36,445 nt of DNA from Planctomycetota bacterium. Lineage in GTDB: Bacteria > Planctomycetota > Planctomycetia > Pirellulales > PLA5. The notes below the pieces were generated by a model. The model ran no database searches. It was not told where the DNA came from and saw nothing but the letters and a program-made list of their open reading frames with translations. The stretch lies in the NCBI GenBank assembly GCA_003576845.1, contig QEVJ01000054.1, forward strand, positions 1 through 36,445, written 5' to 3'. Position numbers and translations under genes: made by a program. Position 1 is the stretch's first letter. The number at the start of each line of letters is the position of its first letter. Positions 1,580-30,800 of the stretch are shown piece after piece.

Positions 1580-1624
1580 CGCATCACCAATGAAAAGCTA
1601 GTCACCATGAAGCGGATCTGAGAG

Positions 1625-2284: not shown

Positions 2285-2391
2285 GACTCAATAAATGCGC
2301 GAGGTCGGCCGAAAGGGCGCAGGAAATCTTGCCGCTGCGAAGTTTTATTGACACCCGCCGTGTCCCGGGCCGCAGCCAGGTTTCCGGTTGA

Positions 2392-2419
2392 GTGGGCAGT
2401 GGGCAGTGGGCTGTGGGCT
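2392..2419. repeat. Tandem heptanucleotide array, 4 units
   Basis: Four consecutive 7-base units, GTGGGCA twice then GTGGGCT twice, lie in the spacer between the end of hpnE and the start of the ECF sigma gene. The rest of this 186-base spacer has a small perfect stem (GTCGCT/AGCGAC, about 2444-2458) just downstream of hpnE and presumably the sigma-gene promoter. Confidence 0.75.
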
Positions 2420-2470
2420 GTGTTTAACGAACCCGCCTTGTCGCTGGTAGCGACCGCGAGCAGCGCGACG

Positions 2471-3889: not shown

Positions 3890-4809
3890 GACGCCGCCGG
3901 CTCCGACCGACAAGGCCGACTTGGCCGAGCAACGAGCGCCCGCGCGGCCAATTGCACCTTCCGCCACGTCGGCACGCGCACCCGCCGCGTCAGCACGTCG
4001 CTGCCCGCGCGCTCCACGCGGTCCAGCAAGTCTCGATACGTCGCATACATCGCCGCAAACGCGCGCCGACCGTCCGCCGAGAGATAGTTGGACAATTCCG
4101 AGGCCGCGGCGAAGTGCCTTCGGGCAACGGCAACCTGATCGTCAAGCACCGCCGCGAACCGCGCGTCCGCCACGCCGGCCACAAGCTCTTCCGGAGCATA
4201 TCCGCGCCGCCGCAGATCGTCGAGCGGCAAATAAACCCGGCCGCGAGCCGCGTCTTCGCCCAGATCGCGCAAGATATTCGTCCACTGAAACGCCAGGCCG
4301 CACCGCTGTGCCGGCTCGAACGCCGCCGGAGAACGGAATCCCCAAATGTGAATGCACGAGAGTCCGACGACCGACGCAACCCGATAGCAATACGCTTCGA
4401 GCTCCGCCGCCGTCGCGTATCGCCGCTCGTCGAGGTCCATCGCGACGCCGTCGAGCGCGTCGAATAGGTACTCGCGCGGAATCGCATATCGCCGGACCGT
4501 ATCGACGAGGGCCGGCAACAACGGATCGGCCGCATCGCCGTCGAACGCGCGGACCAGCGCTTCGCGCAATGCTTCCAATTCGATTCGGCGTCGCTCGACC
4601 GGCAGCGCCGCGTCGCCGATATCGTCGGCGCGGCGCAGGAACGCATACAGCGCGCACATCGCTCGCCGTTTCGCGCTCGGCAACAGCCAAAACGCCAGAT
4701 AGAAGCTCGATGCGGCTCGCCGCGCGTGCACCGAGCAGCGCCGATAGCTCTCGGCCAACGAAACCGGCGGCAAGCAGAACGTCCGATCGCCCGAGACGGC
4801 CACGCTCAC
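3886..4809 (-). CDS. hpnD: Presqualene diphosphate synthase HpnD
   Basis: A 307-residue squalene/phytoene synthase-fold enzyme that condenses two farnesyl diphosphates to presqualene diphosphate. Both metal-binding aspartate-rich motifs are visible: RRADDIGD near residue 60 and NILRDLGEDAARGRVYLP near residue 185. The start is a GTG (4807-4809) and its first bases overlap the hpnC stop (GTGA overlap at 4806-4809); the C-terminal stop overlaps the hpnE ATG. Such tight coupling at both ends supports a single operon. Assignment as HpnD rather than HpnC rests on similarity in length and motif spacing and on the gene order C-D-E; the two are paralogues, so some uncertainty remains about which is which. 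The last ~20 residues are arginine/proline-rich. Confidence 0.9.
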   Translation of the reverse strand: MSVAVSGDRTFCLPPVSLAESYRRCSVHARRAASSFYLAFWLLPSAKRRAMCALYAFLRRADDIGDAALPVERRRIELEALREALVRAFDGDAADPLLPALVDTVRRYAIPREYLFDALDGVAMDLDERRYATAAELEAYCYRVASVVGLSCIHIWGFRSPAAFEPAQRCGLAFQWTNILRDLGEDAARGRVYLPLDDLRRRGYAPEELVAGVADARFAAVLDDQVAVARRHFAAASELSNYLSADGRRAFAAMYATYRDLLDRVERAGSDVLTRRVRVPTWRKVQLAARALVARPSRPCRSEPAAS

Positions 4810-5858
4810 GACGCCGCTCCTTGCCGCTCGGTGGCACGATTAGCTTGCGCGCTGGTGAGCAACGCCGTTGGAGCATCCAATGCAACGCCAGTGGGCGAGG
4901 CGCCAATGCCGCTCTGTCGCCGCCGTCGCCACCAACTCGAAGCGAGCAATCCGAGCTTCTTCCACTTTCCGACCGTCGGACGCTTGCGCCACACGTCGTA
5001 ATCGATCGCCCGAATCGCCTCGACGATCGCCAGCCCGCCGCGCGCAAACAACTCGATCTGCACCTGGAATTCCGGCGGCATGCGATCGGCGAGGGGCATC
5101 CCCGCGATTAGGAATGCTTCCGCCCGCGCCACCTCGACCTCCATCACCCGGCGAAATGCGGCGTTCATCTCCCGGCGGGCGAACATCGCCTCGTCGTAGC
5201 CACATCGTCGCCACGACTCGCCCGGCAAATAAATCCGCCCGCGATCCCAATCGTTCGCCACGTCCTGGCAAAAGTTCGCCAGTTGCAGCCCCGTGCAAAT
5301 CTGGTCGGAAAGCTCGCCGCGCTCGCCGTCGTGGGCGCGGGCGAGATACAACACGAGCCGCCCAACGGGATCGGCCGACCCGCGGCAATACGCACGCAAG
5401 TCCTCGAACGTCGCGTACCGCGTCTGTTGCTGGTCGCGGCGAAATGCGGTCAACAAGGCGAGGAACGGCTCGATCGGAATCGCAAACTCGGCGATCGTTT
5501 CGCCCATCGCGACAAACACCGGATGCGTCGCCCGGCCGCGGTAACACGCTTCGAGCGACTCCTGCCACCAGTCGAGCAGCGCCAGCGACTCGTCCGCGGA
5601 ACCGGTCTCGTCGGCCAGGTCGTCGGCCCAGCGGCAGTAAGCGTAAATTGCGTGAAAATGCGGCCGCAACGCTCGGGGAACGAGAAAACTGGCGACGGTA
5701 AAGTTCTCGTAATGCGTCCGCGCCAGGCGCCGGCAATACGCTCGCGCATCCGCGAGCGTCGGCGGCGTCGAGGCGACATGCGGCCCGAACCGTGCCAGGT
5801 CGTTGATAATGGACGAGCGCGGCATCGTGTGCTGGTCGCCTCTCGATCCGCTCGCCAT
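4806..5858 (-). CDS. hpnC: Hydroxysqualene synthase HpnC
   Basis: A 350-residue enzyme of the squalene/phytoene synthase fold, first gene of the squalene operon. In this pathway HpnC converts presqualene diphosphate to hydroxysqualene. The first Asp-rich motif is YCRWADDLADE (about residue 75), and the second is FCQDVANDWDRGRIYLP (about residues 195-215), both intact. ATG 5858 is preceded by a GAAAGG purine stretch 9 bases away; a second ATG at 5825 (MPRSSI) also has a possible ribosome site and would give a length closer to the family norm. The C-terminal ~50 residues after the catalytic domain are unconserved-looking. It is divergent from ispH, which supplies upstream isoprenoid precursors. 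No squalene-hopene cyclase or sterol cyclase gene is in this window. Confidence 0.91.
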   Translation of the reverse strand: MASGSRGDQHTMPRSSIINDLARFGPHVASTPPTLADARAYCRRLARTHYENFTVASFLVPRALRPHFHAIYAYCRWADDLADETGSADESLALLDWWQESLEACYRGRATHPVFVAMGETIAEFAIPIEPFLALLTAFRRDQQQTRYATFEDLRAYCRGSADPVGRLVLYLARAHDGERGELSDQICTGLQLANFCQDVANDWDRGRIYLPGESWRRCGYDEAMFARREMNAAFRRVMEVEVARAEAFLIAGMPLADRMPPEFQVQIELFARGGLAIVEAIRAIDYDVWRKRPTVGKWKKLGLLASSWWRRRRQSGIGASPTGVALDAPTALLTSAQANRATERQGAAS

Positions 5859-6001
5859 AATCGTTCGCCTTTCCCACCCGCGGGCCGGTCATTATGATGC
5901 ATGGTAGGCTTCCACAGCCCGTAGCGGAAGTCGCCGAGATGTCCGCTACGGAATACCCAATCTGTCAACCGCCCACTGTCCACTACGTCCCCGCCGCCGC
6001 C

Positions 6002-6940
6002 ATGAAAGTCCTGCTAGCTAGCCCCCGCGGATTTTGCGCCGGCGTGAACATGGCGATCGAGTGCTTGGACCTGGCCCTGCGGCTCTATGGCCCGCCGGTC
6101 TACGTGTATCATGAAATCGTCCACAACAAGCACGTCGTCGACGAGTTCCTCGCCAAGGGGGCGGTGTTCGTCAATTCGATCGACGAAGTGCCCGTCGGGT
6201 CGCACTTGCTCTATTCGGCCCACGGCATTTCGCCCACGGTCCGCGCGGAATCCGCCGCCCGAGAGCTTCACGCCATCGACGCCACGTGTCCGCTGGTCAC
6301 GAAAGTTCACCTCGAAGCAATCCGCTACGCCGAGCGCGGTTATAAAATCCTGCTCATCGGCCACGAAGGGCACGACGAAGTCGTCGGCACGATGGGCGAG
6401 GCGCCCGACGCGATCGTGCTCGTGCAAACGCCCGAAGACATCGACGCGCTCGCCTTCCCGCCGGGCACGAAACTCGCCTACGTCACGCAAACCACGCTGT
6501 CGGTCGACGACGCGAATCGGATCATCTCGCGGCTCAAGGCGCGCTTTCCCGCCATCGCCGCGCCGCCCAAGGAAGACATCTGCTACGCGACGCAGAACCG
6601 GCAAGAAGCGGTAAACATCCTCTCGCAAGAAGCGGAGTTGGTCCTAGTGCTGGGCAGCCAGAACAGCTCCAACAGTCAGCGGCTCGCGGAGCTTGCCCGC
6701 CAGGCCGGCCGCGCGGCGTACTTGGTCGATGGACCCGGCGATCTCGACGAGTCGTGGTTCGACGGGGTCGAAACAGTGCTCGTCACGGCCGGCGCCAGCG
6801 CCCCGGAAACGGTCGTCCAGCAGGTGCTCGACTATCTTCGCGAGCATTTTGCCGCCACGGTAGAGTCCCGTTCGATCCGCGACGAGGAAGTTTATTTTCC
6901 GCTTCCGCGCGAACTCCGCCGGGCGACGGCCAAGGCCTGA
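6002..6940 (+). CDS. ispH: 4-hydroxy-3-methylbut-2-enyl diphosphate reductase (IspH/LytB)
   Basis: An iron-sulphur enzyme of the methylerythritol phosphate pathway that reduces HMBPP to IPP and DMAPP. The three cluster cysteines are visible in SPRGFCAGV, DATCPLVTK and DICYATQNRQEAV. The catalytic glutamate region GHEGHDEVVGTMGE and the substrate-binding GSQNSSNSQRL block are also present. Starting at 6002 (MKVLLASPRGFCAGV) gives 312 residues, the usual family length, and begins right at the first beta strand. In-frame ATGs at 5894 and 5939 also exist; the 5939 codon has a better ribosome site (GGAAG, 8 bases away) but would add 21 unconserved residues. The gene is divergent from hpnCDE; its products feed the farnesyl diphosphate used there. 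Confidence 0.95.
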   Translation: MKVLLASPRGFCAGVNMAIECLDLALRLYGPPVYVYHEIVHNKHVVDEFLAKGAVFVNSIDEVPVGSHLLYSAHGISPTVRAESAARELHAIDATCPLVTKVHLEAIRYAERGYKILLIGHEGHDEVVGTMGEAPDAIVLVQTPEDIDALAFPPGTKLAYVTQTTLSVDDANRIISRLKARFPAIAAPPKEDICYATQNRQEAVNILSQEAELVLVLGSQNSSNSQRLAELARQAGRAAYLVDGPGDLDESWFDGVETVLVTAGASAPETVVQQVLDYLREHFAATVESRSIRDEEVYFPLPRELRRATAKA

Positions 6941-6967
6941 CAGCACGTCGAAGACCGCACACTGAAT

Positions 6968-7039
6968 TGTAGGAGGCGAATCCTTTCGCCGAAGTCCTCG
7001 TGGAAAGCGTCGAATTGGCGAAAGGATTCGCCTCCTACA
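6968..7039. repeat. Long perfect inverted repeat between convergent ispH and APH-fold gene
   Basis: Arms at 6968-6990 and 7017-7039 are perfect reverse complements (23 bases; core GTAGGAGGCGAATCC / GGATTCGCCTCCTAC) with a 26-base loop. It lies 28 bases after the ispH stop and 30 bases before the stop of the minus-strand gene. It could act as a bidirectional terminator or mRNA 3' stabiliser. There is no T-run, so classical intrinsic termination is not shown. The arms look like a dispersed palindromic element. Confidence 0.8.
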
Positions 7040-7068
7040 GCGGTATTTGGACAGGCTGCAAAACCGGT

Positions 7069-8142
7069 TTACCCGCTGTTGAGAATCAGCGTGGTTCCGC
7101 CGCGCGGCTCCGAAACGAGTCGTTCCAACCGCGCTACGGCGGCTAGCAGACGCTTCGTGACCGCCGCCGGATCGTCGAACGTGCGTCCGTCGACGAGCAG
7201 CCACCGCAACCACAGGGCCGGCGACAGCGCGATGTTGGCGCGTTCGATGACGATGACTAGGCAACGCTCGTCTGCGTCGAGCGGACGCACGATTTCATAC
7301 GCCGCCGCGCCCAAGTCCCGCGCCGCGGCGTCGCTGGCCGCGAGACTTCCGAGCAGCCGGGCGATGTCCGCCGCAACCGAATCGACGCGCATCGCACCGA
7401 GGTCGACAATCCCCGTCACCTCGTCGCCGACGAACAGGACGTGATCGCTCCAGACGTCTCCCAGGCAGGGTTGCAGCGCGACATCAAGTCGCGTCGCGTC
7501 CTCGACGAGTGGCCCAACCAACGCCGCAGCGCGCGGAAAAAGCGACACGAACCGCCGGCACGCATCGGCGACCTCGGGAGCGACGGGCCGCGAGGTCAGC
7601 GCCGCCGAAAGCTCCTCCAAACCGCCCACCAACAATCGCGCCAGCCGTGCGCGGCGCTCGACGATGCCGGGCGATGGTCCTCGTTGCAACTCAATGAATG
7701 GAAACGATTCCACCGCGCGATGAAACCGCGCCAAGGCCTGCATCGCGTTCGAGAGTCGCTCGCGGCTCGGCCGCGCATGATAATCCGCCACGCCGCCGAG
7801 CCACGGCGCCAGTTCCCACAACCGCCCGGCGCGATAGACGAACGTCGCGCCGTCGGTCGTGCGAACCGGCTGCGCGAGAAGCGTGAAGCCATTCGCCAAG
7901 GCATGCGCCGCGACGTGGTGAATCCAAGCGAGCCGCTCCGGCGAAGGATGTTCCTGTGGCCAGCAGCGCAGCGCCAGCGTTCCCCGCGCGGCCTGCAACT
8001 TCCAAATCCGCGCCCCGCTAAAACCGCCAGCCGAGCCGAGCGCAACGCCGCTCGCCGCGCGGCAATCCGGCGGATAACGCTCCAGAACGGCTTGTACGTC
8101 GGCGTCCATAGGTCCGGTAAGCCCGTAGTGCGGCGTCCACAT
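7069..8142 (-). CDS. APH-fold (aminoglycoside phosphotransferase/homoserine kinase-like) protein
   Basis: A 357-residue protein with the two-lobed small-molecule kinase fold. The N-lobe starts with GSAGGFSGARIWKLQ (about residues 37-51, the nucleotide-loop equivalent). The C-lobe has LGDVWSDHVLF (227-237) followed by GEVTGIVDLGAM-like sequence at 240-251. In active family members the first motif reads HGDxxxxN; here the histidine is leucine and the asparagine is histidine, while the catalytic aspartate (D229) and the metal-binding aspartate (D247) are kept. The substrate cannot be read from sequence. ATG 8142 was chosen because upstream codons lie inside a palindromic repeat; ATG 8109 is also possible and neither has a clear ribosome site. 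It stands alone between ispH and the divergent yqiJ-like gene. Confidence 0.75.
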   Translation of the reverse strand: MWTPHYGLTGPMDADVQAVLERYPPDCRAASGVALGSAGGFSGARIWKLQAARGTLALRCWPQEHPSPERLAWIHHVAAHALANGFTLLAQPVRTTDGATFVYRAGRLWELAPWLGGVADYHARPSRERLSNAMQALARFHRAVESFPFIELQRGPSPGIVERRARLARLLVGGLEELSAALTSRPVAPEVADACRRFVSLFPRAAALVGPLVEDATRLDVALQPCLGDVWSDHVLFVGDEVTGIVDLGAMRVDSVAADIARLLGSLAASDAAARDLGAAAYEIVRPLDADERCLVIVIERANIALSPALWLRWLLVDGRTFDDPAAVTKRLLAAVARLERLVSEPRGGTTLILNSG

Positions 8143-8151
8143 CGAGAATTG

Positions 8152-8241
8152 GGGTGCCACTGCTGGCTTGTCCAGCAGTGCGGTTCGCGAGGCAACGTCA
8201 AACGGCAATTCTCACTGCTGGACAAGCCAGCAGTGGCACCC
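8152..8241. repeat. Long perfect inverted repeat upstream of the APH-fold gene
   Basis: Arms at 8152-8180 and 8213-8241 (29 bases each, core CACTGCTGGACAAGCCAGCA) are perfect reverse complements, separated by 32 bases. Each arm also contains an internal CTGCTGG/CCAGCAG dyad. A degenerate third copy of the core occurs at about 8373-8399 (CTGGACAAGCCGCCAGTACC), and a related ACTGGCGGAGCCAGTGGCAC occurs near 30635-30654, so this is a small dispersed repeat family. It occupies the divergent spacer ahead of both the APH-fold and yqiJ-like genes. Confidence 0.8.
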
Positions 8242-8482
8242 TACCCGACTTGCCGCATGACTCCGCCGGCGGCGATTCGCCAGCCGATTTTCGGCAATAC
8301 CGCGTCCCTTGCCGCGAATGAACTATCAAACCGGAACATCTCCCGTCCCTGCAAGCCCCGCAGGCCGTACGCGATGCTGGACAAGCCGCCAGTACCGCCC
8401 GATTGCGGCTATCGGGGTTCACGACGTACCATAGTGTGGCATCGGGCCGCTGCGCGCAGGGAACGCCTGGGAGGATCGCGAT

Positions 8483-9202
8483 ATGGACTTCATCAACTTC
8501 ATTACGCTCGTATTTGACCTGCCGATTCTGCCGTTTACCGTGCTGCTGATCCTGGTGTTCCTGTATTGGACGCTGGTGATCGTCGGGGCGCTCGCGCCGG
8601 ATTCGTTGCACATCGACATCGACGGCGATGTCGACGTGGACGTCCACGCGGACATCGACGCCGGACACGTCGACGTGGGACATGCCGACGTCGGTCACGC
8701 CGACGCGGGCGACGCCGGACACTTGGACGCCGGCGGTTCGATGCTCGGCAGCGTGTTGCACTTCGTCAACGTCGGCGAAGTGCCGTTGATGGTCGTGGCC
8801 AGCTTTTTCATCTTCGCCCTCTGGGCCTGCACGCTGATTTCCTACGAATACCTCGGAGCGACGCTGGGACCGCTTGTGTCGATCATCATGCTCGTGCCGA
8901 ATGTGATCGTCAGCGGCCTGGTCGCCAAAGTCGTTACGACGCCGTTCAAGTTCATGTTCAAGCACATGAACGAAGGGATCGCCGCCCCCGCCAAAATCGT
9001 GGGCAAAACTTGTATCATCAAAACACCCACCGCGGACGAGCGCTCGGGCCAGGCCGAAATCCGGACCGATAGCTCGCCGCTGCTGCTCAACGTGCGCACC
9101 AAGCCGGGCGAATCGCTGGCCAAGGGAGACGAAGCCCTGGTCGTCGCCCACGATCCTCAACGGGACACTTATACGGTCGTCAAGTTCGACCTGGAGATGT
9201 AG
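8483..9202 (+). CDS. YqiJ-like (DUF1449/OB-fold) membrane protein
   Basis: A 239-residue membrane protein. The first membrane segment is at about 12-38. A 45-residue linker made almost only of Asp, His, Val, Gly and Ala follows (about 42-86). Two further hydrophobic segments are at about 100-120 and 128-152. A C-terminal soluble domain (about 160-239, AKIVGKTCIIKTPTADERSG onward) has the five-strand pattern expected of the OB fold that ends YqiJ/NfeD-type proteins. In that family the protein works beside a flotillin, and here the flotillin starts two bases after the stop codon, so the pair is almost certainly translated together. A GGGAGG site lies 8 bases before the ATG. Its probable role is organisation of a membrane microdomain with the flotillin; the biochemical activity is not known. 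Confidence 0.85.
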   Translation: MDFINFITLVFDLPILPFTVLLILVFLYWTLVIVGALAPDSLHIDIDGDVDVDVHADIDAGHVDVGHADVGHADAGDAGHLDAGGSMLGSVLHFVNVGEVPLMVVASFFIFALWACTLISYEYLGATLGPLVSIIMLVPNVIVSGLVAKVVTTPFKFMFKHMNEGIAAPAKIVGKTCIIKTPTADERSGQAEIRTDSSPLLLNVRTKPGESLAKGDEALVVAHDPQRDTYTVVKFDLEM

Positions 9203-9204
9203 AC

Positions 9205-11313
9205 ATGGGAACGCTTCAGATGATCTTGTATGTCGGAATTGTCCTGGCCATCCTGGTCGCCATCGGCTTTCTGATCCTGCTCGTCAACTGCTACAAGAAA
9301 GTCGAGCAAGGCACGGCCGTCGTCCGCAACGGCGTCGGCGGCACGCGGGTGAGTTTCTCCGGCATTTTCGTGATCCCCGTGTTCCACCGCAGCGAGCGGA
9401 TGGACATCTCCGTCAAGCGGATCGAAATCTACCGCCACGGCGCGGAGGGTTTGATCTGCCTCGACAACATCCGGGCCGACATCAAGGTCGCGTTCTTCGT
9501 CCGCGTCAACCAGACGCAGCAAGACGTAATGCACGTCGCCCAGTTGCTCGGCTGTCCCCGGGCGTCGGAAGAACGGGCTCTCGTCGAATTGTTCGACGCG
9601 AAGTTTTCCGAAGCCCTCAAGACGGTCGGCAAGCAATTCGACTTCGTCGATCTGTACAACTCGCGCGAGCGGTTCAAGGCTGAGATTCTCAAGACGATCG
9701 GCACCGACTTGAACGGCTACGTCCTCGACGACGCGGCCATTGATTACCTCGAACAGACGCCGATCGAAAAGCTCAATCCGGACAACATTCTCGACGCCGA
9801 GGGCATCAAGAAGATCACCGACCTGACCGCGAAGCAACAGGTGCTGGCGAACAACATCCGCCGCGACAAGGAAAAGACGATCACGAAGCAGGACGTCGAA
9901 GCCCGCGAGGCGATTCTCGAACTCCAACGTCAACAGGCCGAAGCAGAAGAAAAGCAGCACCGCGAGATCGCCGAAGTCCAGTCCCGCCAGCGGGCCGAAG
10001 CCGAGATCATCGCCCAACAAGAGCGCAAGCGGAGCGAAACGGCCCGGATCGCGGCCGAGGAAGAAATCCAGATCGCCGAGGAAAACAAGCAGCGGCAGAT
10101 CGTCGTCGCCCTCAAGAACAAGGAGCGCACGACCGCCGTCGAGACGGAGCGGGTCGAGCGCGACCGCCTGCTGGAAGTCACCGAGCGGGAGCGGATCGTC
10201 ACGCTCGCCCAGATCGAGAAGGAAAAGGCCGTCGAAGTCGAGCGGAAGAACATTCAAGACGTAATCCGCGAGCGGGTCGTCGTCGAACGGGCCGTCGTCG
10301 AGGAGCAAGAGAAGATCAAGGACACGCACGAATTCGCCACCGCGGAACGGGCGAAAAAGGTCACTATTACGCAGGCGGAGGCCGCGGCACAGAAGGACTT
10401 GGTGCATGAAGTTCAAGCCGCCGAAGCGTCGAAGCAATCGGCGTCACGGCTGGCCGAGCAAAAGCTCATCGAAGCGGAAGCCGCCCGCGCCGCCGCGGAG
10501 AAGCAAACCGAAGCCAAGAAGATGCTCGCGGAAGCACTCACGGCGGAATCGGCGGCGGTCGGTCTGGCCGAAGCTCGCGTGCTCTCGGCGAAAGCCGAAG
10601 CCGTCGAGAAGCACGGCACGGCGGAAGCCGTTGTCGTCGAACGCAAGGCGGTGGCCGAAGCCAAGGGTCTGTCGGCTCGTGCCGAAGCCGTCGAGAAGGA
10701 AGGCACCGCCGAAGCCAAGGTGCTAGAACTCAAGGCCAAGGCCGACGCCGAAGGCATCAAGCAGAAGGCCGACGCGATGAAGCTGTTCGACGGCGTGGGC
10801 CGCGAGCACGAAGAGTTCAAGCTCCGGCTGCACAAGGACCGCGATATCGAGCTGGCCGAAATCAACGCCCAGAAGGACATCGCGTCGAGCCAGGCGATGG
10901 TCGTCAGCGAAGCGCTCAAGAGCGCGAAAATCGACATCGTTGGCGGCGACACGACGTTCTTCGACCGGATCGTGGCCAGCGTGTCGAACGGCAAGGCCCT
11001 CGATCGGCTCATCGAGAACAGCGACGTGCTGACCGACGTGCGGCATTCGCTGCTCAACGGCGACGGCGGCGACGCGGATGGAACGCATTTGCAGGACCGC
11101 GTCGCGGCGATCGCCCGCAAGATCGGGTTTACGACGGAGGACGTGAAGAACCTGACGATCACGGCGCTCGTGCTCAAGATGATCGGCCTGGCCGACACGG
11201 ACGGGCTGCGCGGCGAGTTGTCGAGTCTGCTCGAACGTCTGCGGCAAACGAAGCTCGGCGATTCGCTGGCGTCGACGCTGAACCTCGGCAAGGCCAGCGC
11301 AGCGAAAAAGTAG
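9205..11313 (+). CDS. Flotillin-family (YqiK-like) SPFH membrane scaffold protein
   Basis: A 702-residue flotillin. A single N-terminal membrane segment (about residues 5-28, IVLAILVAIGFLILLVN) is followed by CYKKVEQGTAVVRNG, the start of the SPFH/band-7 domain (about 30-205). A very long alpha-helical region rich in Glu, Ala, Lys and Arg follows (about 210-570), with repeated EAVEK.GTAEA-type units around 465-520. The C-terminal tail (about 600-700) is more globular. Flotillins oligomerise through these coiled coils and build membrane microdomains. The length matches the longer YqiK type rather than the ~500-residue FloA/FloT type. The start has a GGAG site within the end of the preceding gene. 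It is the second gene of a three-gene module whose third member is a giant AAA+ ATPase. Confidence 0.93.
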   Translation: MGTLQMILYVGIVLAILVAIGFLILLVNCYKKVEQGTAVVRNGVGGTRVSFSGIFVIPVFHRSERMDISVKRIEIYRHGAEGLICLDNIRADIKVAFFVRVNQTQQDVMHVAQLLGCPRASEERALVELFDAKFSEALKTVGKQFDFVDLYNSRERFKAEILKTIGTDLNGYVLDDAAIDYLEQTPIEKLNPDNILDAEGIKKITDLTAKQQVLANNIRRDKEKTITKQDVEAREAILELQRQQAEAEEKQHREIAEVQSRQRAEAEIIAQQERKRSETARIAAEEEIQIAEENKQRQIVVALKNKERTTAVETERVERDRLLEVTERERIVTLAQIEKEKAVEVERKNIQDVIRERVVVERAVVEEQEKIKDTHEFATAERAKKVTITQAEAAAQKDLVHEVQAAEASKQSASRLAEQKLIEAEAARAAAEKQTEAKKMLAEALTAESAAVGLAEARVLSAKAEAVEKHGTAEAVVVERKAVAEAKGLSARAEAVEKEGTAEAKVLELKAKADAEGIKQKADAMKLFDGVGREHEEFKLRLHKDRDIELAEINAQKDIASSQAMVVSEALKSAKIDIVGGDTTFFDRIVASVSNGKALDRLIENSDVLTDVRHSLLNGDGGDADGTHLQDRVAAIARKIGFTTEDVKNLTITALVLKMIGLADTDGLRGELSSLLERLRQTKLGDSLASTLNLGKASAAKK

Positions 11314-11330
11314 AATCGATCGTCTCTTAA

Positions 11331-11522
11331 CGCAGAGGGGGCAGAGGTTTCGCAGAGGGCGCGGAGCAGAACACCCACGATAACGAAGAGAGATAATCCA
11401 CCGACGGCGCAGATTGTCGCAGATGAAACCAAGAAATGATGGATTGATTGTCTAACTGGCAGGGATGCGACGCTGCCAGGCATTTTCCTCTGCGACCTCT
11501 GCGCGTCCTCTGCGGCCTCTGT
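11331..11522. repeat. Inverted array of CGCAGAGG-type repeats in the flotillin-ATPase spacer
   Basis: The 312-base spacer between the flotillin stop and the ATPase start holds three CGCAGAGG/GCAGAGG copies at 11331-11360 on plus, and four CCTCTGCG copies at 11487-11522, i.e. the same motif inverted. The two clusters could pair in a long stem around a ~125-base loop. Repeats of this kind recur in intergenic DNA of several bacterial phyla. No other gene is seen here; any internal promoter was not recognised. Confidence 0.75.
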
Positions 11523-11607
11523 GTTGAAGACGTAACCAACTCGTTTTTGATTCGAGTCCGAGGCCGTCGTAAGACGCGTCATCGCGAAGTGGTAGTGACT
11601 TCGCATT

Positions 11608-11623
11608 CGGAAAGTGCTTTCCG
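11608..11623 (+). promoter_or_regulatory. Short hairpin covering the ribosome-binding region of the DUF3686 ATPase gene
   Basis: CGGAAAG-TG-CTTTCCG is a perfect 7-base-pair stem with a 2-base spacer, ending three bases before the ATG at 11626. The GGAAAG half is the only purine-rich ribosome-site candidate, so the stem could mask it and lower translation of this very large protein relative to its neighbours. The 2-base loop is tight, so partial opening at the tip is expected. Confidence 0.45.
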
Positions 11624-11625
11624 CT

Positions 11626-14600
11626 ATGGCTGATGCCGAAAAACCCACTTCCGAGCAAGTTTCCAGGGCACCGGATTCTTCGCCAGCGTCCGCCGACGCG
11701 CAGCTCGATCGCGGCACGTACGAGATCATCCGGCAGCGGCTCGACGGCCATGCCGCCGAACTCAAGTCGCGGCTCGACAAGCTCAACGCGGCCCGCCGCG
11801 ATGTGTTCGGTTCGATCGAGACGAAGCTCCTCGCGACCGAGCGGATCACGACCACGAACAACTGCATCGCCCGCGACATGGTCGCGCTCGGCGAGCGGTT
11901 CCTGTTCGGGTACAACGTGCATCTGGGCCTGAAAAGCGAAACGTCGCCGGCCGACGTGCTCGCCGTGCATCGCTTCGACGGATCGGCGTTTCATGCCGAA
12001 TCGCTCGATCTGGTCGCGGACGCCCGCTTCGAAACCGACTTCCAGCAGTTGTTCAAGTATTACAAGGAGCCGAAGTTTACGCGGTTCTATCGCCGCGGCC
12101 CGGCGCTGTATCTCGTGTTTCAGGTCGGCAAGTCGGCTGCCGACATCAAGGCGTTCAAATGGCTCGTCGAGGGCGATAAGCTCCGCTACGTCGACAACCG
12201 CAGTGACCACGAAGTCCGCTTTCCGAGCCAGCATGAATTCGAGTGGAAGCGGACCCACCGCGACTTGCAGCGTAAGGGGTTGCACCCGCACATCTCGATC
12301 GAAGACCGTCTGTTCGTCGAGTGCGTCGGCGGCGACTTGACGATCAAAATCGAGGACAACACGGACTCGGGCGAAGGCATCTACAGCGAACCGGTTGCCA
12401 ACGCCGACCAGACGCTCGACGACGCGGAAATCTTCTACGCCTCGCTCGGCAACATCATCCTGCTCAAGGTTCGGCCGTATCAGGAAAAGGCTTACCGCTA
12501 CATCGCCTACAACGAGAAGGTGCAGAAAGCGATTCGCATCGACGCCATCGAACAGGCGTGCGTGCTGCTGCCGGAGGATCATGGCGTCATCTTTTCGAGC
12601 GGCTATCTCCTGCAAACGGGAGCGCACAAGACGTTCGATAGCGGCCTGGCCGGCTTGATGTTCGACCACAAGATCGCCTCGCCCAACGGCGAAGACGTGC
12701 TCTACGTGTTCTACCATCCGGAAACCGGCCAGCACGTGCTGCTCTCCTACAACCTGATCGAACAGCGAGTCGACACGCCGATCGTGTGTCATGGCTATGC
12801 CCTGTTCGAGTCCGGCAAGCTGCTGTTTTTCAAGGCCGTCGACGAGCCGCAAAAGCACCACGCAGTCCAAATCTGGCAAACGCCGTATTTGGGCGCGGAC
12901 TATGCCGTGCCGGCGGCCGACGCGGCGAAGAGCGATTCGCTGCTGTTCAAGGTCGGCAACCGCGACGTGGTGCGGGCGATGGCCGAGTGCCACGAGATCA
13001 TCGCGCTCGCCGGCAAGGACGATACTTACGCGAATCTGTACGTCGACATCGTCAAGCTCACCGGCGACGTGCTCGACACGTACCATTGGCTCGCGCAGGA
13101 CGAGGCCGCCAACCTCGCCGCGCCGCTGGCCGAGATTCGCAGCGCCGCGGCCGCGGCCGTCGACGAGTTCGACAAGGTTGTCCGCGTTCGCCGCACGACG
13201 CAGCAGCGGTTCGACAAGGTGTCGGGCGACGCGAAAAAGCTGCTGTCGACCGTCGGCGCAAAGCGGTACGAAGCGATCAACGACTATGTGGCGTCGCTCG
13301 CTGAGTTGCGGAGGGCACGCGGCGACGTGATCGGCCTGCGCGACTTGCGGTACGTCGACCGGCCGGCCGTCGATGCGATGGAGAAGCAGATCGCCGGCGA
13401 GGCGGACAAGCTCGCCGCCAAGTCGGTCGAGTTCTTGCTCCGACCGGACGCGCTCGCGCCCTACGAGCAGCGGATCGGCGGTCTTCGCGGGCGAATCGAC
13501 GCCGTGCCCACCGCCGCCGAAGCGAAGAAGCTCGACGAAGAGTTCGCCTCGGCCGGCGGCGAACTCGAAATGCTCATCGACGTGGTGGGCAATCTCAAGA
13601 TCGACGACGCCACGCGCCGCACCGCGATCACCGACGCCATTTCGACGATCTACTCGCAGCTCAACCAGGCCCGCGCGGAACTCAAGAAAAAGGCCAAGGA
13701 GTTGCTGTCCGTCGAAGGGGTCGCCGAGTTCGCGGCCCAAATGAAGCTGCTCGGCCAGGCGGTGACGAATTACCTCGAATTGTGCGACGAACCGCGCAAG
13801 TGCGACGACTATCTCACCAAGGTGATGGTGCAGATCGAGGAACTCGAAGGCCGGTTCGCCGAGTTCGACGAGTTCGTCGAGCAACTCGCGGCGAAGCGCG
13901 ACGAAGTCTACACGGCGTTCGACACGCGCAAGGTGGCGCTCGTCGAAGCCCGCAACAAGCGCGCGGCGTCGCTGCTCGCCGCGGCCGATCGGATTCTCAA
14001 GGGCGTCGCCACGCGGGTCGCGGGTTTCAAGGAAGCGGCGGATATCCACGCCTATTTCGCCGCCGACCTGATGATCGACAAAGTCCGCGACCTGGTGCGG
14101 CAACTCGGCGAGTTGGGCGACTCGGTCAAGGTCGACGAGATTCAGAGCCGGCTCAAGACGATCCGCGAAGACGCCTTGCGGCAGCTCAAGGACCGCAAGG
14201 AACTGTTCGTCGACGGCCAGAACGCGATCCGCTTCGGCAAGCACGCGTTCTCGGTCAATACGCAGGTGCTCGATCTGACGACCGTGCTCAAGGACGGCCG
14301 GCTGTGCTTGCACCTGGCCGGGACGAACTTCGTCGAGCCGGTGGCGGACGAAACGCTGCTCGCGGCGCAAGACCTGTGGGACCAGGAAGTCGTCTCCGAA
14401 AACAAGGACGTCTATCGCGGCGAGTTCCTGGCGTATCGACTGCTGCGCGAGCTGGAAGAAGGTCCGGCGGCGGACTTGGACGCGGCGACTCGGCTCGACG
14501 AAGCGGAATTGCTGCTCCGCGTTCAGCAGTTCATGTCGCCGCGCTACGCCGAAGGCTACGTCAAAGGCGTTCACGATCAGGACGCGGCCAAGCTACTTAA

Positions 14601-16986
14601 GGCGCTCCTTGAAATCCGTGCGTCAATAGGCCTGTTGCGGTTTCATCCGCAAGCCCGGGCCCTGGCGATGCTCTGCTGGCTGCACGAAGACGACGCCGAG
14701 CGAAAGCAGCATCTCTCGGCCAAAATTCGCGGCGCGGGGGCCGTGTTCAAGGCATTTCCGGGCGTCGATATCGCCGATGCCTACGTCGCCGAATTGCGCC
14801 CGCTCTTGGCCGCGTTCGTGCATCGCACGGGTCTGTTCGCCGAGTCGCTCGTCGAGCAGGCGGCCGAGTATCTGTTCGAGGAATTGTCGCAACACGAGCA
14901 TTTCGCACTCCACGAGAAGTCGGCCGGCTTGCTGCGCGAGTTCGGCGCCCATCTCGACAAGCACCGGCTGCGCGAGTCTTATGAAAAGTCGCTCGCGCCG
15001 CTTAGAAAGAACGTGCAATCGGCGTTCGTCGTCCTTCGCGATTGGGTCGGCGCATTTTTGAGCCAACGCGGCGCGGGCGAGGACGCCGTCTATGCCGATG
15101 CGGTGGCCGTGTCGCTGTTGTATCGTCCGCCGGTCGAACGGCCCGTGCTCGGCGGGACGTCGACGCGCGAACTTACCGGTTTTCTCGGTCAGCACGCGAC
15201 GATCGACAACGGCGTTTACAAGCTCGACTACAACGCTTTCCGCCTGAAGCTCCGCCGCTACGAGCGCGACCTCGCCCCGCGGTTCGAGGCGTATCAAACG
15301 GCCAAGAAAACGCTGCTCGCCGGCAAGCGCGAGGAACTCAAGCTAGAAGAGTTCAAGCCGAAGGTGCTCACGTCGTTCGTCCGCAACAAGCTGCTCGACG
15401 AGGTGCTGCTGCCGGCGATCGGCAACAACCTGGCCAAGCAGATCGGCGTGGTCGGCGAGGAGAAGCGGACCGATTTGATGGGCCTTTTGTTGCTCGTTTC
15501 GCCGCCGGGCTACGGCAAGACGACGCTCATGGAATACGTCGCCAATCGCCTCGGCATCACCTTCGTCAAGGTGAATGGACCCGCGATCGGCCATGCCGTT
15601 ACGTCGCTCGATCCGGCGGAAGCGCCAAACGCCGGAGCGCGCGAGGAAGTCAATCGGCTCAACCTCGCGCTCGAAATGGGCGACAACGTCATGCTGTATA
15701 TCGACGATATCCAGCATTGCAACCCGGAGTTCTTGCAGAAGTTCATTTCGCTCTGCGACGCGCAGCGAAAGATCGAGGGCGTGTACCGCGGCAAGACGCG
15801 GACCTACGACCTCCGCGGACGGAAGGTGTGCGTCGTGATGGCGGGCAATCCGTACACCGAGAGCGGCGAGAAGTTCAAGATTCCCGACATGCTCGCGAAC
15901 CGGGCCGACGTGTACAACTTGGGCGACATCGCCGGCGGCAACGCGGAAGCGTTCCGCTTGAGCTATCTCGAAAACGCGCTCACTTCGAATGCGGCCCTGT
16001 CGGTGATTTCCTCGCGGAGCCACAAGGACGTGCACGGCATCATCAAGATCGCGGCGACCGGCTCGGCCGAGGGGATCGAATGGGATGCGACGTACTCGGC
16101 GGAAGAGCTGGCCGACGCCGTGGCCGTGATGAAGAAGTTGCTCCGCGTGCGCGACGTGCTACTGCGCGTGAACGAGGAATACATCCGTTCGGCCGCGCAA
16201 GCCGACGAATTCCGCACGGAGCCGGCGTTCAAGCTGCAAGGTTCGTATCGCGACATGAACAAGCTCGCCGAACGCGTCGTGCCGGTGATGAACGACGCGG
16301 AGTTGGAGGCGACGATCGCGGCGCATTACCGCAATCAGGCCCAAACGCTCACGACCGGCGCCGAAGCGAACCTCCTCAAGCTCAAGGAAATGTTCGGCCA
16401 GTTATCAGTGGAAGAGGCCGAGCGGTGGGAGAATATCTGCCGCACGTACCAGCGGAACCAAATGCTCCGCGGCGTCGGCTCGGACGACAAGACGGGTCTG
16501 GTCATCGCGCAGCTCACCGCGCTCGGCGAAGGATTGGCCGCGATCAACAAATCCTTGGGCGGCGCCGTCGACCGGATGAGCCAGCGGCGCGAGTCCGCAG
16601 AGCCCACCGCGACGCACGAACAGATTGCGGCGGCGCTCGCGCACCTCGAATCGCTCGGCGAACGGCTCTCGGCGGTGCAGACGACGCTGGCCGACGGGGC
16701 GGGCAAGCTCGGTGAAACGCTGTCGGCCGCCGCCAGGAAGACCGACGAACCGGTCGTCCCCGCCACCGTCCAGGTCGTCAACCGCGTTCCCCGAGCGTTC
16801 CTCGACGTGATTCAAACGCAATTTCAACTGCTCTACGCCTGGATGCGGGCGAGCGTCGCCAAGGAAGCGTCCGGAGACAACGGCGAAGGCGACCGCGAAA
16901 AGTTCCGCCAGGCAGTCGACGAAACGATGCAGCGGTATCAGGTGCTCATCAAGAAGCTCGAAGAAGGCTCGCAGCGCGGCGGTTAG
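11626..16986 (+). CDS. DUF3686-type 'DNA repair' AAA+ ATPase, 1786 residues
   Basis: A giant soluble protein. Residues ~25-480 form the beta-rich DUF3686-like N-terminal region with many aromatic repeats resembling propeller blades. Residues ~490-1250 are mostly helical or coiled coil. The AAA+ module follows: Walker A SPPGYGKTTLM (about 1292-1302), Walker B NVMLYIDD (about 1354-1361) and a sensor-1 asparagine in VVMAGNPYTES (about 1408). The last ~250 residues are again helical with repeated HLESLGERLSAVQ-type heptads. ATG 11626 (MADAEKP) was preferred over an in-frame GTG at 11614. Members of this family are annotated as DNA-repair ATPases from weak similarity only; function is unproven. 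It follows the YqiJ-like and flotillin genes in the same direction and meets the YhaN-like ATPase tail to tail. The protein has no membrane segment, so the flotillin could recruit it to the membrane (inference). Confidence 0.9.
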   Translation: MADAEKPTSEQVSRAPDSSPASADAQLDRGTYEIIRQRLDGHAAELKSRLDKLNAARRDVFGSIETKLLATERITTTNNCIARDMVALGERFLFGYNVHLGLKSETSPADVLAVHRFDGSAFHAESLDLVADARFETDFQQLFKYYKEPKFTRFYRRGPALYLVFQVGKSAADIKAFKWLVEGDKLRYVDNRSDHEVRFPSQHEFEWKRTHRDLQRKGLHPHISIEDRLFVECVGGDLTIKIEDNTDSGEGIYSEPVANADQTLDDAEIFYASLGNIILLKVRPYQEKAYRYIAYNEKVQKAIRIDAIEQACVLLPEDHGVIFSSGYLLQTGAHKTFDSGLAGLMFDHKIASPNGEDVLYVFYHPETGQHVLLSYNLIEQRVDTPIVCHGYALFESGKLLFFKAVDEPQKHHAVQIWQTPYLGADYAVPAADAAKSDSLLFKVGNRDVVRAMAECHEIIALAGKDDTYANLYVDIVKLTGDVLDTYHWLAQDEAANLAAPLAEIRSAAAAAVDEFDKVVRVRRTTQQRFDKVSGDAKKLLSTVGAKRYEAINDYVASLAELRRARGDVIGLRDLRYVDRPAVDAMEKQIAGEADKLAAKSVEFLLRPDALAPYEQRIGGLRGRIDAVPTAAEAKKLDEEFASAGGELEMLIDVVGNLKIDDATRRTAITDAISTIYSQLNQARAELKKKAKELLSVEGVAEFAAQMKLLGQAVTNYLELCDEPRKCDDYLTKVMVQIEELEGRFAEFDEFVEQLAAKRDEVYTAFDTRKVALVEARNKRAASLLAAADRILKGVATRVAGFKEAADIHAYFAADLMIDKVRDLVRQLGELGDSVKVDEIQSRLKTIREDALRQLKDRKELFVDGQNAIRFGKHAFSVNTQVLDLTTVLKDGRLCLHLAGTNFVEPVADETLLAAQDLWDQEVVSENKDVYRGEFLAYRLLRELEEGPAADLDAATRLDEAELLLRVQQFMSPRYAEGYVKGVHDQDAAKLLKALLEIRASIGLLRFHPQARALAMLCWLHEDDAERKQHLSAKIRGAGAVFKAFPGVDIADAYVAELRPLLAAFVHRTGLFAESLVEQAAEYLFEELSQHEHFALHEKSAGLLREFGAHLDKHRLRESYEKSLAPLRKNVQSAFVVLRDWVGAFLSQRGAGEDAVYADAVAVSLLYRPPVERPVLGGTSTRELTGFLGQHATIDNGVYKLDYNAFRLKLRRYERDLAPRFEAYQTAKKTLLAGKREELKLEEFKPKVLTSFVRNKLLDEVLLPAIGNNLAKQIGVVGEEKRTDLMGLLLLVSPPGYGKTTLMEYVANRLGITFVKVNGPAIGHAVTSLDPAEAPNAGAREEVNRLNLALEMGDNVMLYIDDIQHCNPEFLQKFISLCDAQRKIEGVYRGKTRTYDLRGRKVCVVMAGNPYTESGEKFKIPDMLANRADVYNLGDIAGGNAEAFRLSYLENALTSNAALSVISSRSHKDVHGIIKIAATGSAEGIEWDATYSAEELADAVAVMKKLLRVRDVLLRVNEEYIRSAAQADEFRTEPAFKLQGSYRDMNKLAERVVPVMNDAELEATIAAHYRNQAQTLTTGAEANLLKLKEMFGQLSVEEAERWENICRTYQRNQMLRGVGSDDKTGLVIAQLTALGEGLAAINKSLGGAVDRMSQRRESAEPTATHEQIAAALAHLESLGERLSAVQTTLADGAGKLGETLSAAARKTDEPVVPATVQVVNRVPRAFLDVIQTQFQLLYAWMRASVAKEASGDNGEGDREKFRQAVDETMQRYQVLIKKLEEGSQRGG

Positions 16987-17161: not shown

Positions 17162-20100
17162 TCAACCTTGAAGCAGCGTGGGCGCCGGCGTATTGCTCGT
17201 GCCGCGTTTCCGTTCGCGGCGTGGCGGCTCGTCGCGCTCGCTGCCGGCCAAAAAGTGCGTGCAATAGCCGCCTGTCGGCAAATGTTCGGCCGCGAGGTCG
17301 AGCACGTGGCGGTGATGGGTGAAGAAGATGACTTGCGTCTTTTTGGCCAGTTCCGCGAACGCCGCTAGCGCCGCGGCGGCCCGGCGGTCGTCGAACCGCT
17401 GAAGCACGTCGTCGACGATGAACGGAATGGGTGGGTGATTGTCGAGATAGTGCTCGACGCTGGCGAGGCGGAGGGCAAGGTAAAGCTGGTCGCACGTGCC
17501 GTCGCTCATGCCGGTTACACGTACGAACTTGCCCGACGAAGCGCGCACGGCGACGAGGATGGGCTTTTCCTCGTCGTGATCGGCCCTTAGTTCGGAGAAG
17601 TCGCCGCACGTAAGGCGCGAAAAGATGGCGCTGGCCCTGGTCAAGAGCGGCGCTTCGTTCGCCTTGCGATACCGGTCGATGGCCAGCCGCAGCACGGTCG
17701 ACGCCAACCTCAACTGAGCGTAGCGGGCGACGTCGCCTTCGAGTTGCGCTTTTTGCTCTTGCAATTGGGCGTTCGCAATGGCCGCGTCGTTGCGCCCGGC
17801 GTTCGCCAGTTCTTCGCGCTCGAGATGCCAAATCTGCTTTCGCAGAGAATCGAGCTTCTCGACAAGGTCTCTATGGCGCGCGGCCAGCCTCGCCTGTTCG
17901 CCGGGAAGGCCGTCCTGCTCGACGCGCGAAAGGTCGTCTAGGAACAATTCCAGCGACGCCCCCGCCGCTTGCGCGACGAGCGCCTCGTCGACTTCCGCGA
18001 GCTGCCCTTGCAGTTCGGTCCACCGTCGCCAGCGCACCTCGATCGTCGGCAGGTCGCTGACGGATTCCGTGCCGGCTTCCCGGCAAAGCGCGGCCATCGC
18101 GGCTTCCGCAGAGTCGACGTCCTGGCGAAACTGTGCCAACTCGGTCTCATGGCGCTCGCGGTCCGCGATATGCCTACGCCGCTCGCCGTCGTCCTCGCGG
18201 GCTTCGCTCAATCGAGCGCCCAATGTTGCAACGAGCGTTGCGACCGCAGGGAAGTCCCCCGCGATCGCCGCGCGGGCGTTGAGTTCCGGGCACGATCGTG
18301 CGGCAACATCGGCGACTTGCGACGCATACTCTCGCGCATCGCGGTCGATTCCGGCGATTCGACCCGCGCCGTCGGTTCGCTTTTCGAGCAGATTGCGCAG
18401 CTCGGCGAGCGCGGCGAGCAACGCCTGTGCCTGTGCCGGTGTCAGTTCGTCGTCGTGCCCGAGCGGTTCCACCGCGGTTGCCCAAGCTTGGCGCCACTCG
18501 TCTCGTTCGTTCTCGCAGCGATTCAGATCGTCGTTGGCTTCGGCCAGTTCGCGGGTATCGTCGGCACAGGATGCCTCCAACGACTGCCGGCGGGCGCGGC
18601 GGGTCTCGATTTGGTCTCGAATCGCTTCGAGCGCTTCGGCGGCATGGGAGAGCGACGAACCGCCAACTTGGCCGCGCAGCGCTGCAAGCACGGCAACCGC
18701 TTCCTCGCGGGCCTCCTCGAGCTGCCTGGCGACGGCCGCATGCTCGGCGAAGCGTTGGCGAAGGGCGGCCGCGCGATCGCACAGCCTTTGTCGCTCGCCG
18801 GCCCAAGCGAGCATTTCGCGCGGCGCGCCCGGCGAAACGCCCGATGGCTGCCAAAGCGCCGTCCACTCGCGTTCGCCGGCCGCGTATTGATCTCTGGCGT
18901 GGGACAATTGATTATCGGCCTGGGCTAGGGCCGCGCTCTTCTTCACCAATTCGCTTTCTAGCGAGCTTCTCCTCGCGACGGCGTCGGCGTCGCGTCGCAT
19001 CCGGTCGGCAACGGCATCCGCGGCAGCGACCAGAGGCTCGAATCGCAGGGCGCAAGTTTGCGCCGACGCAAGATCGCCGGCGGTAAGTGCGTCGCAAAGC
19101 GCTCGCCACGCCGCATCGCGCGCTTGCCGAGCCTCGACAAGGGCGCTTTCCGTTGGCGCCTCCCCGCTGGCATGCAGCGCCGCCAAATCCCGGCGCAAGT
19201 TCGCAACTTCGCTGGCAAGGGCGTCTCGACGTCGAATCGCTTCTTCGACCCTTCCGCTCTCCGTGGCCAACCGCGCTTCGTAGCTCCGGATCGCGTCCAT
19301 CGCGGGAACGGACAAGCGTTCGAGGGCGTTCAGATTGCCGTCCCAACGTGCCAACTGAGCCGTATCGACGGCAAGCTGTTCGTCGTCGGCCGCAAGCCGC
19401 TTCGTTTCGACCGCGTGCGGCGCTTCGGAGTGTACGAGCGGTGGAAGGCGCTTGAGCAATCGTTTAAGCGCATCGTCGTCGCCGACCGGCGGTAGCTGCG
19501 CGAGTTTGCTTTGTGCTTCGGCAATGCGACGTTCGAGTTGGGCCCGCCGATGCAAGGCGTTATCGCGGCGAGCGGCAAGGTCGCGATACCGGCCGCTTAG
19601 TTCCTCGATCCGCACGCGGTCGGCGGTCCGCACGACGATCTTCAACTCTTGGTTGTCATCCGAATTGCGGCCGATCATTTCGAGCTGGGATTGTATATCC
19701 CGATCCAGTTGCTCTTTTTTGTGGGCAAGATCGACGCGGTCCGTTGCGGCCTTGGCGTGACTGCTCAAATCGCGGCAGATCGCATCGACCGCCGCGGCGT
19801 GTTCGAGAATCGGCGGCGGAACGCCGAGATTGGAAAGTCGCAAATCGATGCGGTTAAGCTCCTGCTCGGCGCGGTGCCTCGCGTCCGTCGCGGATTGCAG
19901 TCGCGTCGCGGCTTGCTCGCGACGTTCCGCAAAATCGTGGGATAGAACGGGCGCGCTGCCGATTTCCGCAAGCTCCGCCAGTTTCGCCGCGCGACGGGAC
20001 GCGAGCGGCAAGGCCGCCTGGATTCGGGCGAGCCGCGTGCGCGCGGCGTCGAGCGCGGCAAGTTCCTTTTCGATCGCCGCGATCTCGGCCTTGGCAACGG

Positions 20101-20743
20101 CCAGCTCCCGCTCGCGGCGAAGCCAATCGTCGGCCGAAAGCTGAATGTCGCGCAGCGTTCGGGACGCTTTGTTGTACTCGGCGAGCGCCGCGTTGATCGG
20201 CAGTACGCGGGCCTGGGGCTTGTATAGCGCTTCGGCGCTCGCGCGGAGGGTCGCCTGCAATTGGCTGATATGAGCCACGCCCGCACTTGCCGCGAACAGC
20301 ATTTGGCCCACGTCGCCCTTGCCGAGCGCCATTTCCTCTCCGCCTTTGACGAGCGTCTCGTGGTCGAGGCCGAACCGCATCCTGAATGCCGCTTCGTCGA
20401 TATGCCCGAGGGCCTTGGCGAGTTCGTCAGCGGCAATCGGGTTCGTGTCGCTTGCGTCGCGGAGCGTGTTCTTGTTTCCCTTGCGACGCACGATTTGCAG
20501 CGTCTCGCCAGTGGCAAAGCGGACCGTGGCGCCAATCCGCATATCGTTGTACGGATGCACGTGGTCGTCCGTCGATCGCGACTCGATGCCGAACAGCAGC
20601 CCCCGTAGCGCGCGGAGCGCCGTGCTCTTGCCCGCCTCGTTGGGGCCATAAACGATGTGCAGCCTGTCGCTTCCGGCGGCGAAGTCGAGCGATGCGCCGG
20701 TGAACGGACCGAAGGCGAGCAGATCGAGTTCGAGAATCTTCAT
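17162..20743 (-). CDS. YhaN-like (SbcC/Rad50-type) AAA ATPase
   Basis: A 1193-residue SMC-like ATPase. The N-terminal half-site starts MKILELDLLAFGPFTG and carries Walker A YGPNEAGKST (about 33-42), the form typical of YhaN/AAA_27 proteins. About 800 residues of coiled coil follow, in two stretches. The C-terminal half has the ABC-type signature MSDGTCDQLYLALRLA and Walker B PFIVDDVLQRFDD, with a final histidine switch in FFTHHRH. No CxxC zinc hook is seen at the middle, unlike Rad50 and SbcC. The product is expected to partner the YhaO-like nuclease encoded immediately upstream, whose stop overlaps this ATG by four bases (20740-20743). Probable role: ATP-driven DNA-end processing or repair. 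The exact substrate is not readable from sequence. Confidence 0.92.
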   Translation of the reverse strand: MKILELDLLAFGPFTGASLDFAAGSDRLHIVYGPNEAGKSTALRALRGLLFGIESRSTDDHVHPYNDMRIGATVRFATGETLQIVRRKGNKNTLRDASDTNPIAADELAKALGHIDEAAFRMRFGLDHETLVKGGEEMALGKGDVGQMLFAASAGVAHISQLQATLRASAEALYKPQARVLPINAALAEYNKASRTLRDIQLSADDWLRRERELAVAKAEIAAIEKELAALDAARTRLARIQAALPLASRRAAKLAELAEIGSAPVLSHDFAERREQAATRLQSATDARHRAEQELNRIDLRLSNLGVPPPILEHAAAVDAICRDLSSHAKAATDRVDLAHKKEQLDRDIQSQLEMIGRNSDDNQELKIVVRTADRVRIEELSGRYRDLAARRDNALHRRAQLERRIAEAQSKLAQLPPVGDDDALKRLLKRLPPLVHSEAPHAVETKRLAADDEQLAVDTAQLARWDGNLNALERLSVPAMDAIRSYEARLATESGRVEEAIRRRDALASEVANLRRDLAALHASGEAPTESALVEARQARDAAWRALCDALTAGDLASAQTCALRFEPLVAAADAVADRMRRDADAVARRSSLESELVKKSAALAQADNQLSHARDQYAAGEREWTALWQPSGVSPGAPREMLAWAGERQRLCDRAAALRQRFAEHAAVARQLEEAREEAVAVLAALRGQVGGSSLSHAAEALEAIRDQIETRRARRQSLEASCADDTRELAEANDDLNRCENERDEWRQAWATAVEPLGHDDELTPAQAQALLAALAELRNLLEKRTDGAGRIAGIDRDAREYASQVADVAARSCPELNARAAIAGDFPAVATLVATLGARLSEAREDDGERRRHIADRERHETELAQFRQDVDSAEAAMAALCREAGTESVSDLPTIEVRWRRWTELQGQLAEVDEALVAQAAGASLELFLDDLSRVEQDGLPGEQARLAARHRDLVEKLDSLRKQIWHLEREELANAGRNDAAIANAQLQEQKAQLEGDVARYAQLRLASTVLRLAIDRYRKANEAPLLTRASAIFSRLTCGDFSELRADHDEEKPILVAVRASSGKFVRVTGMSDGTCDQLYLALRLASVEHYLDNHPPIPFIVDDVLQRFDDRRAAAALAAFAELAKKTQVIFFTHHRHVLDLAAEHLPTGGYCTHFLAGSERDEPPRRERKRGTSNTPAPTLLQG

Positions 20744-22002: not shown

Positions 22003-22236
22003 GCGGACCTCCTGTCACCAACGATCTGGGCAAGGGCGTGGGCGGGCAGGCGTGGACTTCTGTATATTAACGATTCGCGGCGGGTGCACAAGTAGGCCGC
22101 AGTCGCCCCCGCAAAGGCCACGGGCATCGTCGCCGCCGAGAGCTTGGAGCGGATCGCCGCTCGACAGAGTTGTACGCGATTCTTGGCCGGATTATGGTGG
22201 GGGATACTTCAGCAAGCGAACATGGAGTCGAGTCCC

Positions 22237-30799: not shown

Positions 30800-30800
30800 A

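Follow-up and report, generated by a model that had tools for sequence, protein, structure and literature searches.

The stretch of DNA analysed here, hereafter the window, comprises positions 1-36,445 (36,445 nucleotides) of the forward strand of contig QEVJ01000054.1 in assembly GCA_003576845.1, from a Planctomycetota bacterium (Pirellulales; PLA5). Three consecutive genes on its plus strand, between positions 8483 and 16986, encode in order a YqiJ-like membrane protein, a YqiK-type flotillin and a very large AAA+ ATPase of the DUF3686 family; the genome collection contains at least 582 relatives. The coordinates, protein lengths and gene order given for this module in a preliminary description, made from the sequence without database searches, were all correct on re-checking, as was the 2-base spacing between the YqiJ stop and the flotillin start. 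The ATPase begins at the ATG at 11626, giving 1786 amino acids (aa); a GTG 4 codons upstream would yield 1790. The 312-bp gap in front of it exceeds the median among relatives, about 136 bp when their gap lengths are taken by a simple start-codon rule. Flotillin and ATPase are each present as a single copy in the window genome.

The central result is that this ATPase and one particular kind of flotillin travel together. Occurrence was counted in two phylum-wide samples, 294 planctomycete-phylum and 296 Bacteroidota genomes, selected independently of closeness to the window. DUF3686 was found in 39 of the 294, and the C-terminal flotillin segment that we call the HEEF...IDIVGGE box in the same 39 and in two others, where the contig stops 270 and 460 bases past the box; among the Bacteroidota, DUF3686 and the box occur in the identical 8 of 296 genomes. 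In every one of these 47 DUF3686 genomes, a flotillin of the box-bearing subtype lies upstream within about 3 kb, on the same contig and strand. Fisher's exact test of DUF3686 against the box gives 1e-46 over the 294 genomes and 3e-12 among carriers of the SPFH domain, values that overstate independence, as the genomes are related. The preliminary description held that its idea would fall if most DUF3686 homologues occurred without flotillin, and the neighbourhood survey returned the reverse. Similar results were obtained from the 80 closest named loci, a set biased toward near relatives: flotillin is present in 70 of the 76 that are testable, and among the 61 with at least 4 kb of upstream sequence 58 have flotillin and 55 the full triad. 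The module was also met in a Proteus record and on plasmids from Pseudomonas, Hymenobacter, Streptomyces and Deinococcus; in all 6 of the loci examined, flotillin immediately precedes the ATPase. Evolutionary distances of the ATPase correlate more closely with those of flotillin (r 0.81) than with those of YqiJ (r 0.54), both figures being calculated without species-tree control. On these genomic patterns, YqiJ, the flotillin subtype and the AAA+ protein, with its propeller, coiled coils and MoxR-type domain, are one co-inherited unit.

The flotillin partner is, as judged by its sequence, a separate subtype of the YqiK-type flotillins. Scores against the SPFH domain are bimodal in both samples, with carriers of the box at 226-312 bits, and at 208 bits or below a second group, in 16 planctomycete-phylum and 11 Bacteroidota genomes, that lacks both the box and DUF3686. 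The boxless YqiK-type flotillins of these 27 genomes never accompany the ATPase; 10 of them were inspected, and all keep the YqiJ gene, lack the ATPase and have, at the box position, a C-terminal segment of another kind. E. coli YqiK likewise has another tail there. Because the flotillins that do without the ATPase carry another segment at this place, the box is the best candidate for the site at which the ATPase contacts flotillin.

The ATPase itself keeps every catalytic residue: the preliminary claim of an intact Walker A, Walker B and sensor 1 was confirmed, and these motifs are invariant or almost invariant across the 67 relatives in which conservation was judged (Table 1). Pfam recognizes DUF3686 (622.9 bits), DUF7902 and AAA. 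In AlphaFold2 models, the N-terminal helix and beta-propeller (predicted local distance difference test, pLDDT, 91.3; WD40 propellers match, best Z 9.9) are followed by long helices and then by a single C-terminal AAA+ domain (pLDDT 86.2); the alignments behind these models were built without plasmid rows. Sequence profiles match general AAA and AAA_5 only, and a search meant to place the clade reached p97 and RuvB in the Walker A region only; since the sequence matches are so confined, the clade was placed by structure. The best structural match of the modelled domain is the MoxR-type CbbQ (Z 16.5 over 253 residues, root-mean-square deviation 3.9), followed by NorQ, also MoxR-type (Z 15.8), a dynein AAA fragment (Z about 15) and ClpA/ClpB (about 13). 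The MoxR-family core of Walker A and B, sensor 1 and, in the model, a beta-hairpin before sensor 1 is present.

Table 1. Coordinates of the module's genes, domains and motifs in the window.
Feature	Position	Strand	Evidence or remark
YqiJ/NfeD2-like membrane protein, 239 aa, three transmembrane (TM) segments	8483..9202	+	Pfam YqiJ_N, family profile, hydropathy
YqiK-type flotillin (702 aa) with a single N-terminal TM helix, an SPFH domain and a long helical/coiled-coil stretch	9205..11313	+	Band_7, YqiK identity
SPFH (Band 7) domain of flotillin	9289..9825	+	Band_7 match
HEEF...IDIVGGE C-terminal box, in ATPase-paired flotillins only; candidate docking site	10765..11022	+	
Flotillin-ATPase gap, 312 bp	11314..11625	+	Inverted CTCTGCG/CGCAGAG repeats inside
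DUF3686 AAA+ protein, 1786 aa	11626..16986	+	
DUF3686 domain: N-terminal helix and beta-propeller	11758..13086	+	Pfam E 3e-187; AlphaFold2; WD40 matches
Long helical/coiled-coil region including DUF7902	13411..14205	+	
AAA+ domain, beta-hairpin ahead of sensor 1	15352..16344	+	
Walker A SPPGYGKT (aa 1292-1299)	15499..15522	+	Invariant in 67 relatives
Walker B YIDDIQH (aa 1358-1364; family YxDDIQH)	15697..15717	+	DDIQH invariant in 67 relatives
Sensor 1 region AGNPYTESGE (aa 1406-1415; N1408)	15841..15870	+	AGNP invariant in 67 relatives
Putative arginine finger region DMLANRADVYNLGD (R1426)	15886..15927	+	R invariant in 67 relatives
Putative sensor 2 region LQGSYRDMN (R1542)	16234..16260	+	R invariant in 67 relatives

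Of the two membrane proteins, the full-length flotillin has no Pfam match; its SPFH domain alone matches Band_7 at 1.3e-8, as do those of all 45 alignment members, and shares 34% identity with the corresponding part of E. coli YqiK. In having this domain, a TM helix at the N-terminus and an NfeD2/YqiJ gene as partner, it conforms to the YqiK-type (SPFH2) flotillins, with the box in place of the canonical C-terminus seen in E. coli YqiK. A search of the PDB with the flotillin alone returned nothing, and an SPFH profile reached flotillin-1 weakly (E 0.008); for the box no convincing solved relative was found, a match to TIM21 at E 0.01 being likely due to chance. As for the first gene, which had been described as an OB-fold membrane protein, the membrane part stands, with three hydrophobic segments and a YqiJ_N match of 24.1 bits, barely above the Pfam cut-off. 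The OB-fold part has no direct Pfam match; a profile for the YqiJ family of the window aligns with nearly the full length of E. coli YqiJ (E 2e-13), which carries YqiJ_OB.

Beyond the triad, the genes that recur upstream are those for PspA (18) and CesT/Tir (17), counted among the 61 named loci whose upstream sequence is long enough. Neighbour clustering adds a divergent helix-turn-helix regulator beside CesT/Tir-PspA loci (18 loci) and returned no other conserved partner gene. PspA is also commoner in ATPase-bearing genomes (30 of 39, versus 13 of 41), but because it was undetected in 9 of the 39, some of them more than 90% complete, it is best regarded as a common partner, not an obligate one. 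In the window genome, two PspA genes lie away from the module. Individual loci vary in their layout: positions 91-12837 of one in a 2.8-Mb planctomycete-phylum genome (L166; G142:C89) hold the compact series FtsH-PspA-PspA-YqiJ-flotillin-DUF3686 AAA+-PspA; on Pseudomonas plasmid pQBR103 (L035, 5980-19184), the module forms the end of a YjfI-PspA-rhomboid-DUF2491-DUF350-DUF1190-glutathionylspermidine synthase group; and in L083, flotillin and YqiJ are divergent from the ATPase rather than upstream on the same strand.

The gene set has been described before. Operons of flotillin, YqiJ/YuaF and a beta-propeller AAA+ protein beside PspA operons, the same three gene types as in the window, appear in the relevant portion of Ravi et al. 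2024 (PMC11237479), which explicitly covers an abbreviated form without PspA. The window has the 3-TM YqiJ/YuaF-type protein and an AAA+ protein that combines a beta-propeller and a coiled coil, and no CesT/Tir-PspA pair beside them as in the full form; it matches the abbreviated form and adds a member to the set. Since these genes had already been reported together, the preliminary wording, “module of unknown function,” is too strong as the label of an unknown module. In that portion of the paper, the operons are presented as PspA context; it gives no counts, names neither a flotillin subtype nor an AAA+ clade, and reports no functional test. Our literature search found no mention of “DUF3686” and no earlier co-occurrence counts, box-bearing flotillin subtype or MoxR-like AAA+ placement.

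Among better-known systems, the E. coli YqiJ-YqiK (SPFH2/NfeD2) operon shares the gene order and the SPFH domain, but it has no AAA+ neighbour, and its 553-aa YqiK lacks the box. HflK/C-FtsH likewise joins an SPFH scaffold to an AAA+ protein at the membrane (PMC13220708), but FtsH is a membrane-anchored protease, whereas neither a TM segment nor a protease domain was detected in the DUF3686 protein. The closest solved AAA+ folds belong to the MoxR-type pairs NorQ/NorD and CbbQ/CbbO. Unlike NorQ and CbbQ, the window AAA+ domain shares its 1786-aa chain with a beta-propeller and coiled coils, and a scan limited to the window found no VWA-domain gene among the proteins covered. In B. subtilis, YdjI-PspA also ties an SPFH protein to PspA at the membrane, and the available part of that report makes no mention of a giant AAA+ protein (PMC8581546).

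The role of bacterial flotillins has long been debated. Flotillin is believed to keep hold of unfolded proteins at no cost in ATP, and the holding of clients is reported for FloA/NfeD (PMC11222466); NorQ, a MoxR AAA+ protein, remodels its partner NorD (PMC13036017); and HflK/C-FtsH offers a precedent for pairing an SPFH scaffold and an AAA+ protein (PMC13220708). The interpretation that we put forward, and to which we give about even chances, is a flotillin scaffold equipped with its own ATP-driven chaperone or remodeller, acting on membrane proteins that the scaffold holds. A flotillin oligomer with YqiJ, at the membrane's inner face, would hold membrane-associated proteins that are stressed or unassembled; the AAA+ protein would assemble into a ring recruited through the flotillin box, its own beta-propeller or both; and ATP use would remodel or release the clients, or remodel the scaffold itself. 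Where PspA, CesT/Tir and, once, FtsH are part of the gene group, membrane-repair polymers and proteolysis would probably be coupled to it. A bolder version, which we offer tentatively and with more doubt than confidence, makes the box a dedicated docking segment for the beta-propeller MoxR-type motor and the module an ATP-driven analogue of HflK/C-FtsH that works without proteolysis, refolding or assembling membrane proteins within the scaffold. The preliminary idea that the flotillin recruits an AAA+ remodeller is supported in part: the invariable adjacency to a specific subtype speaks strongly for functional coupling of the two, and “remodeller” fits the MoxR-type fold; links to invading DNA and YhaON are not supported. 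A flotillin subtype always accompanied, in the sampled genomes, by an AAA+ motor of its own would also provide a genetically tractable handle on the larger question, with one motor, one scaffold and one candidate docking segment.

Several observations weigh against this interpretation. Three named loci (L052, L056 and L065), each with more than 8 kb of upstream sequence, have no flotillin. The box may reflect ordinary divergence between subfamilies and be no docking site, since the SPFH domain splits into the same two groups. The MoxR-type placement was derived from a predicted structure, in which CbbQ leads other AAA+ proteins by a modest margin.

Two rival readings keep the module at the membrane. 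The AAA+ protein may instead act on PspA polymers as Vps4 does in an ESCRT-III-like disassembly, with flotillin positioning it there; the recurrence of PspA and CesT/Tir in the gene group, the presence of PspA on pQBR103 and the three PspA genes at L166, the enrichment of PspA in ATPase-bearing genomes and the ESCRT-like roles proposed in the relevant portion of Ravi et al. (PMC11237479) all point that way. Yet PspA escaped detection in nearly a quarter of those genomes and flotillin is never missing, the enrichment may reflect phylogeny, and the AAA+ domain is closer to MoxR-type proteins than to Vps4, so we hold this reading unlikely. Equally, the ATPase may be a regulator of flotillin itself, one that assembles, opens or dismantles the flotillin/YqiJ scaffold with no separate client. 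That the ATPase is obligately paired with a single flotillin subtype and with no other gene, the flotillin-specific box and the co-divergence of the ATPase, closest with flotillin, speak for such a regulator; but the same evidence fits recruitment equally well and boxless flotillins do without any such ATPase, and we consider a role confined to the scaffold improbable.

Readings centred on DNA fare worse. The preliminary description had named the handling of invading DNA among several possible roles and drawn attention to a YhaON nuclease pair lying tail to tail with the module. The pair, a YhaN-like AAA_27/SMC-type ATPase and an Mre11/SbcD-like phosphoesterase (17162-22002, minus strand), is indeed there, but it was found in none of the other loci examined, and a link between it and the module was rejected. 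Patchy distribution, plasmid occurrence and weak partial PADLOC matches (IetA and JetC, best E 1e-4) could speak for an anti-phage or anti-plasmid defence module. Against this, no PADLOC model matched strongly, no defence genes recur across the loci, the conserved partners are membrane-stress proteins, and phage records and viral contigs (IMG/VR) hold no relative, which also led us to reject a phage or viral origin; a defence role is highly improbable. Still more remote is the DNA-repair ATPase of the Pfam text for PF12458. Its RuvB-like Walker A is real, but the preliminary description rightly took the label to be weakly based: the RuvB similarity spans about 45 residues around Walker A, neither Pfam nor NCBIfam finds any other DNA-processing domain, no repair genes recur across the loci, the YhaON pair is peculiar to the window, and the obligate partner is a membrane flotillin. 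The adjacency of motor and subtype-specific flotillin in each of the 47 genomes favours an ATP-driven membrane-protein remodelling machine over a repair enzyme. The “DNA repair” label of the DUF3686 family is unsupported, and the analysis corrects a misleading name on a widespread family.

Elsewhere in the window, an 853-aa M48 peptidase with an N-terminal zinc ribbon is encoded at 22144-24705 on the plus strand. Farther along, at 30783-32909, an N6/N4 DNA methylase (plus strand) stands beside a GmrSD_N-type restriction protein (minus strand) at a GC content of about 50-52%, compared with a window average of about 63%; this is probably an acquired restriction/defence island.

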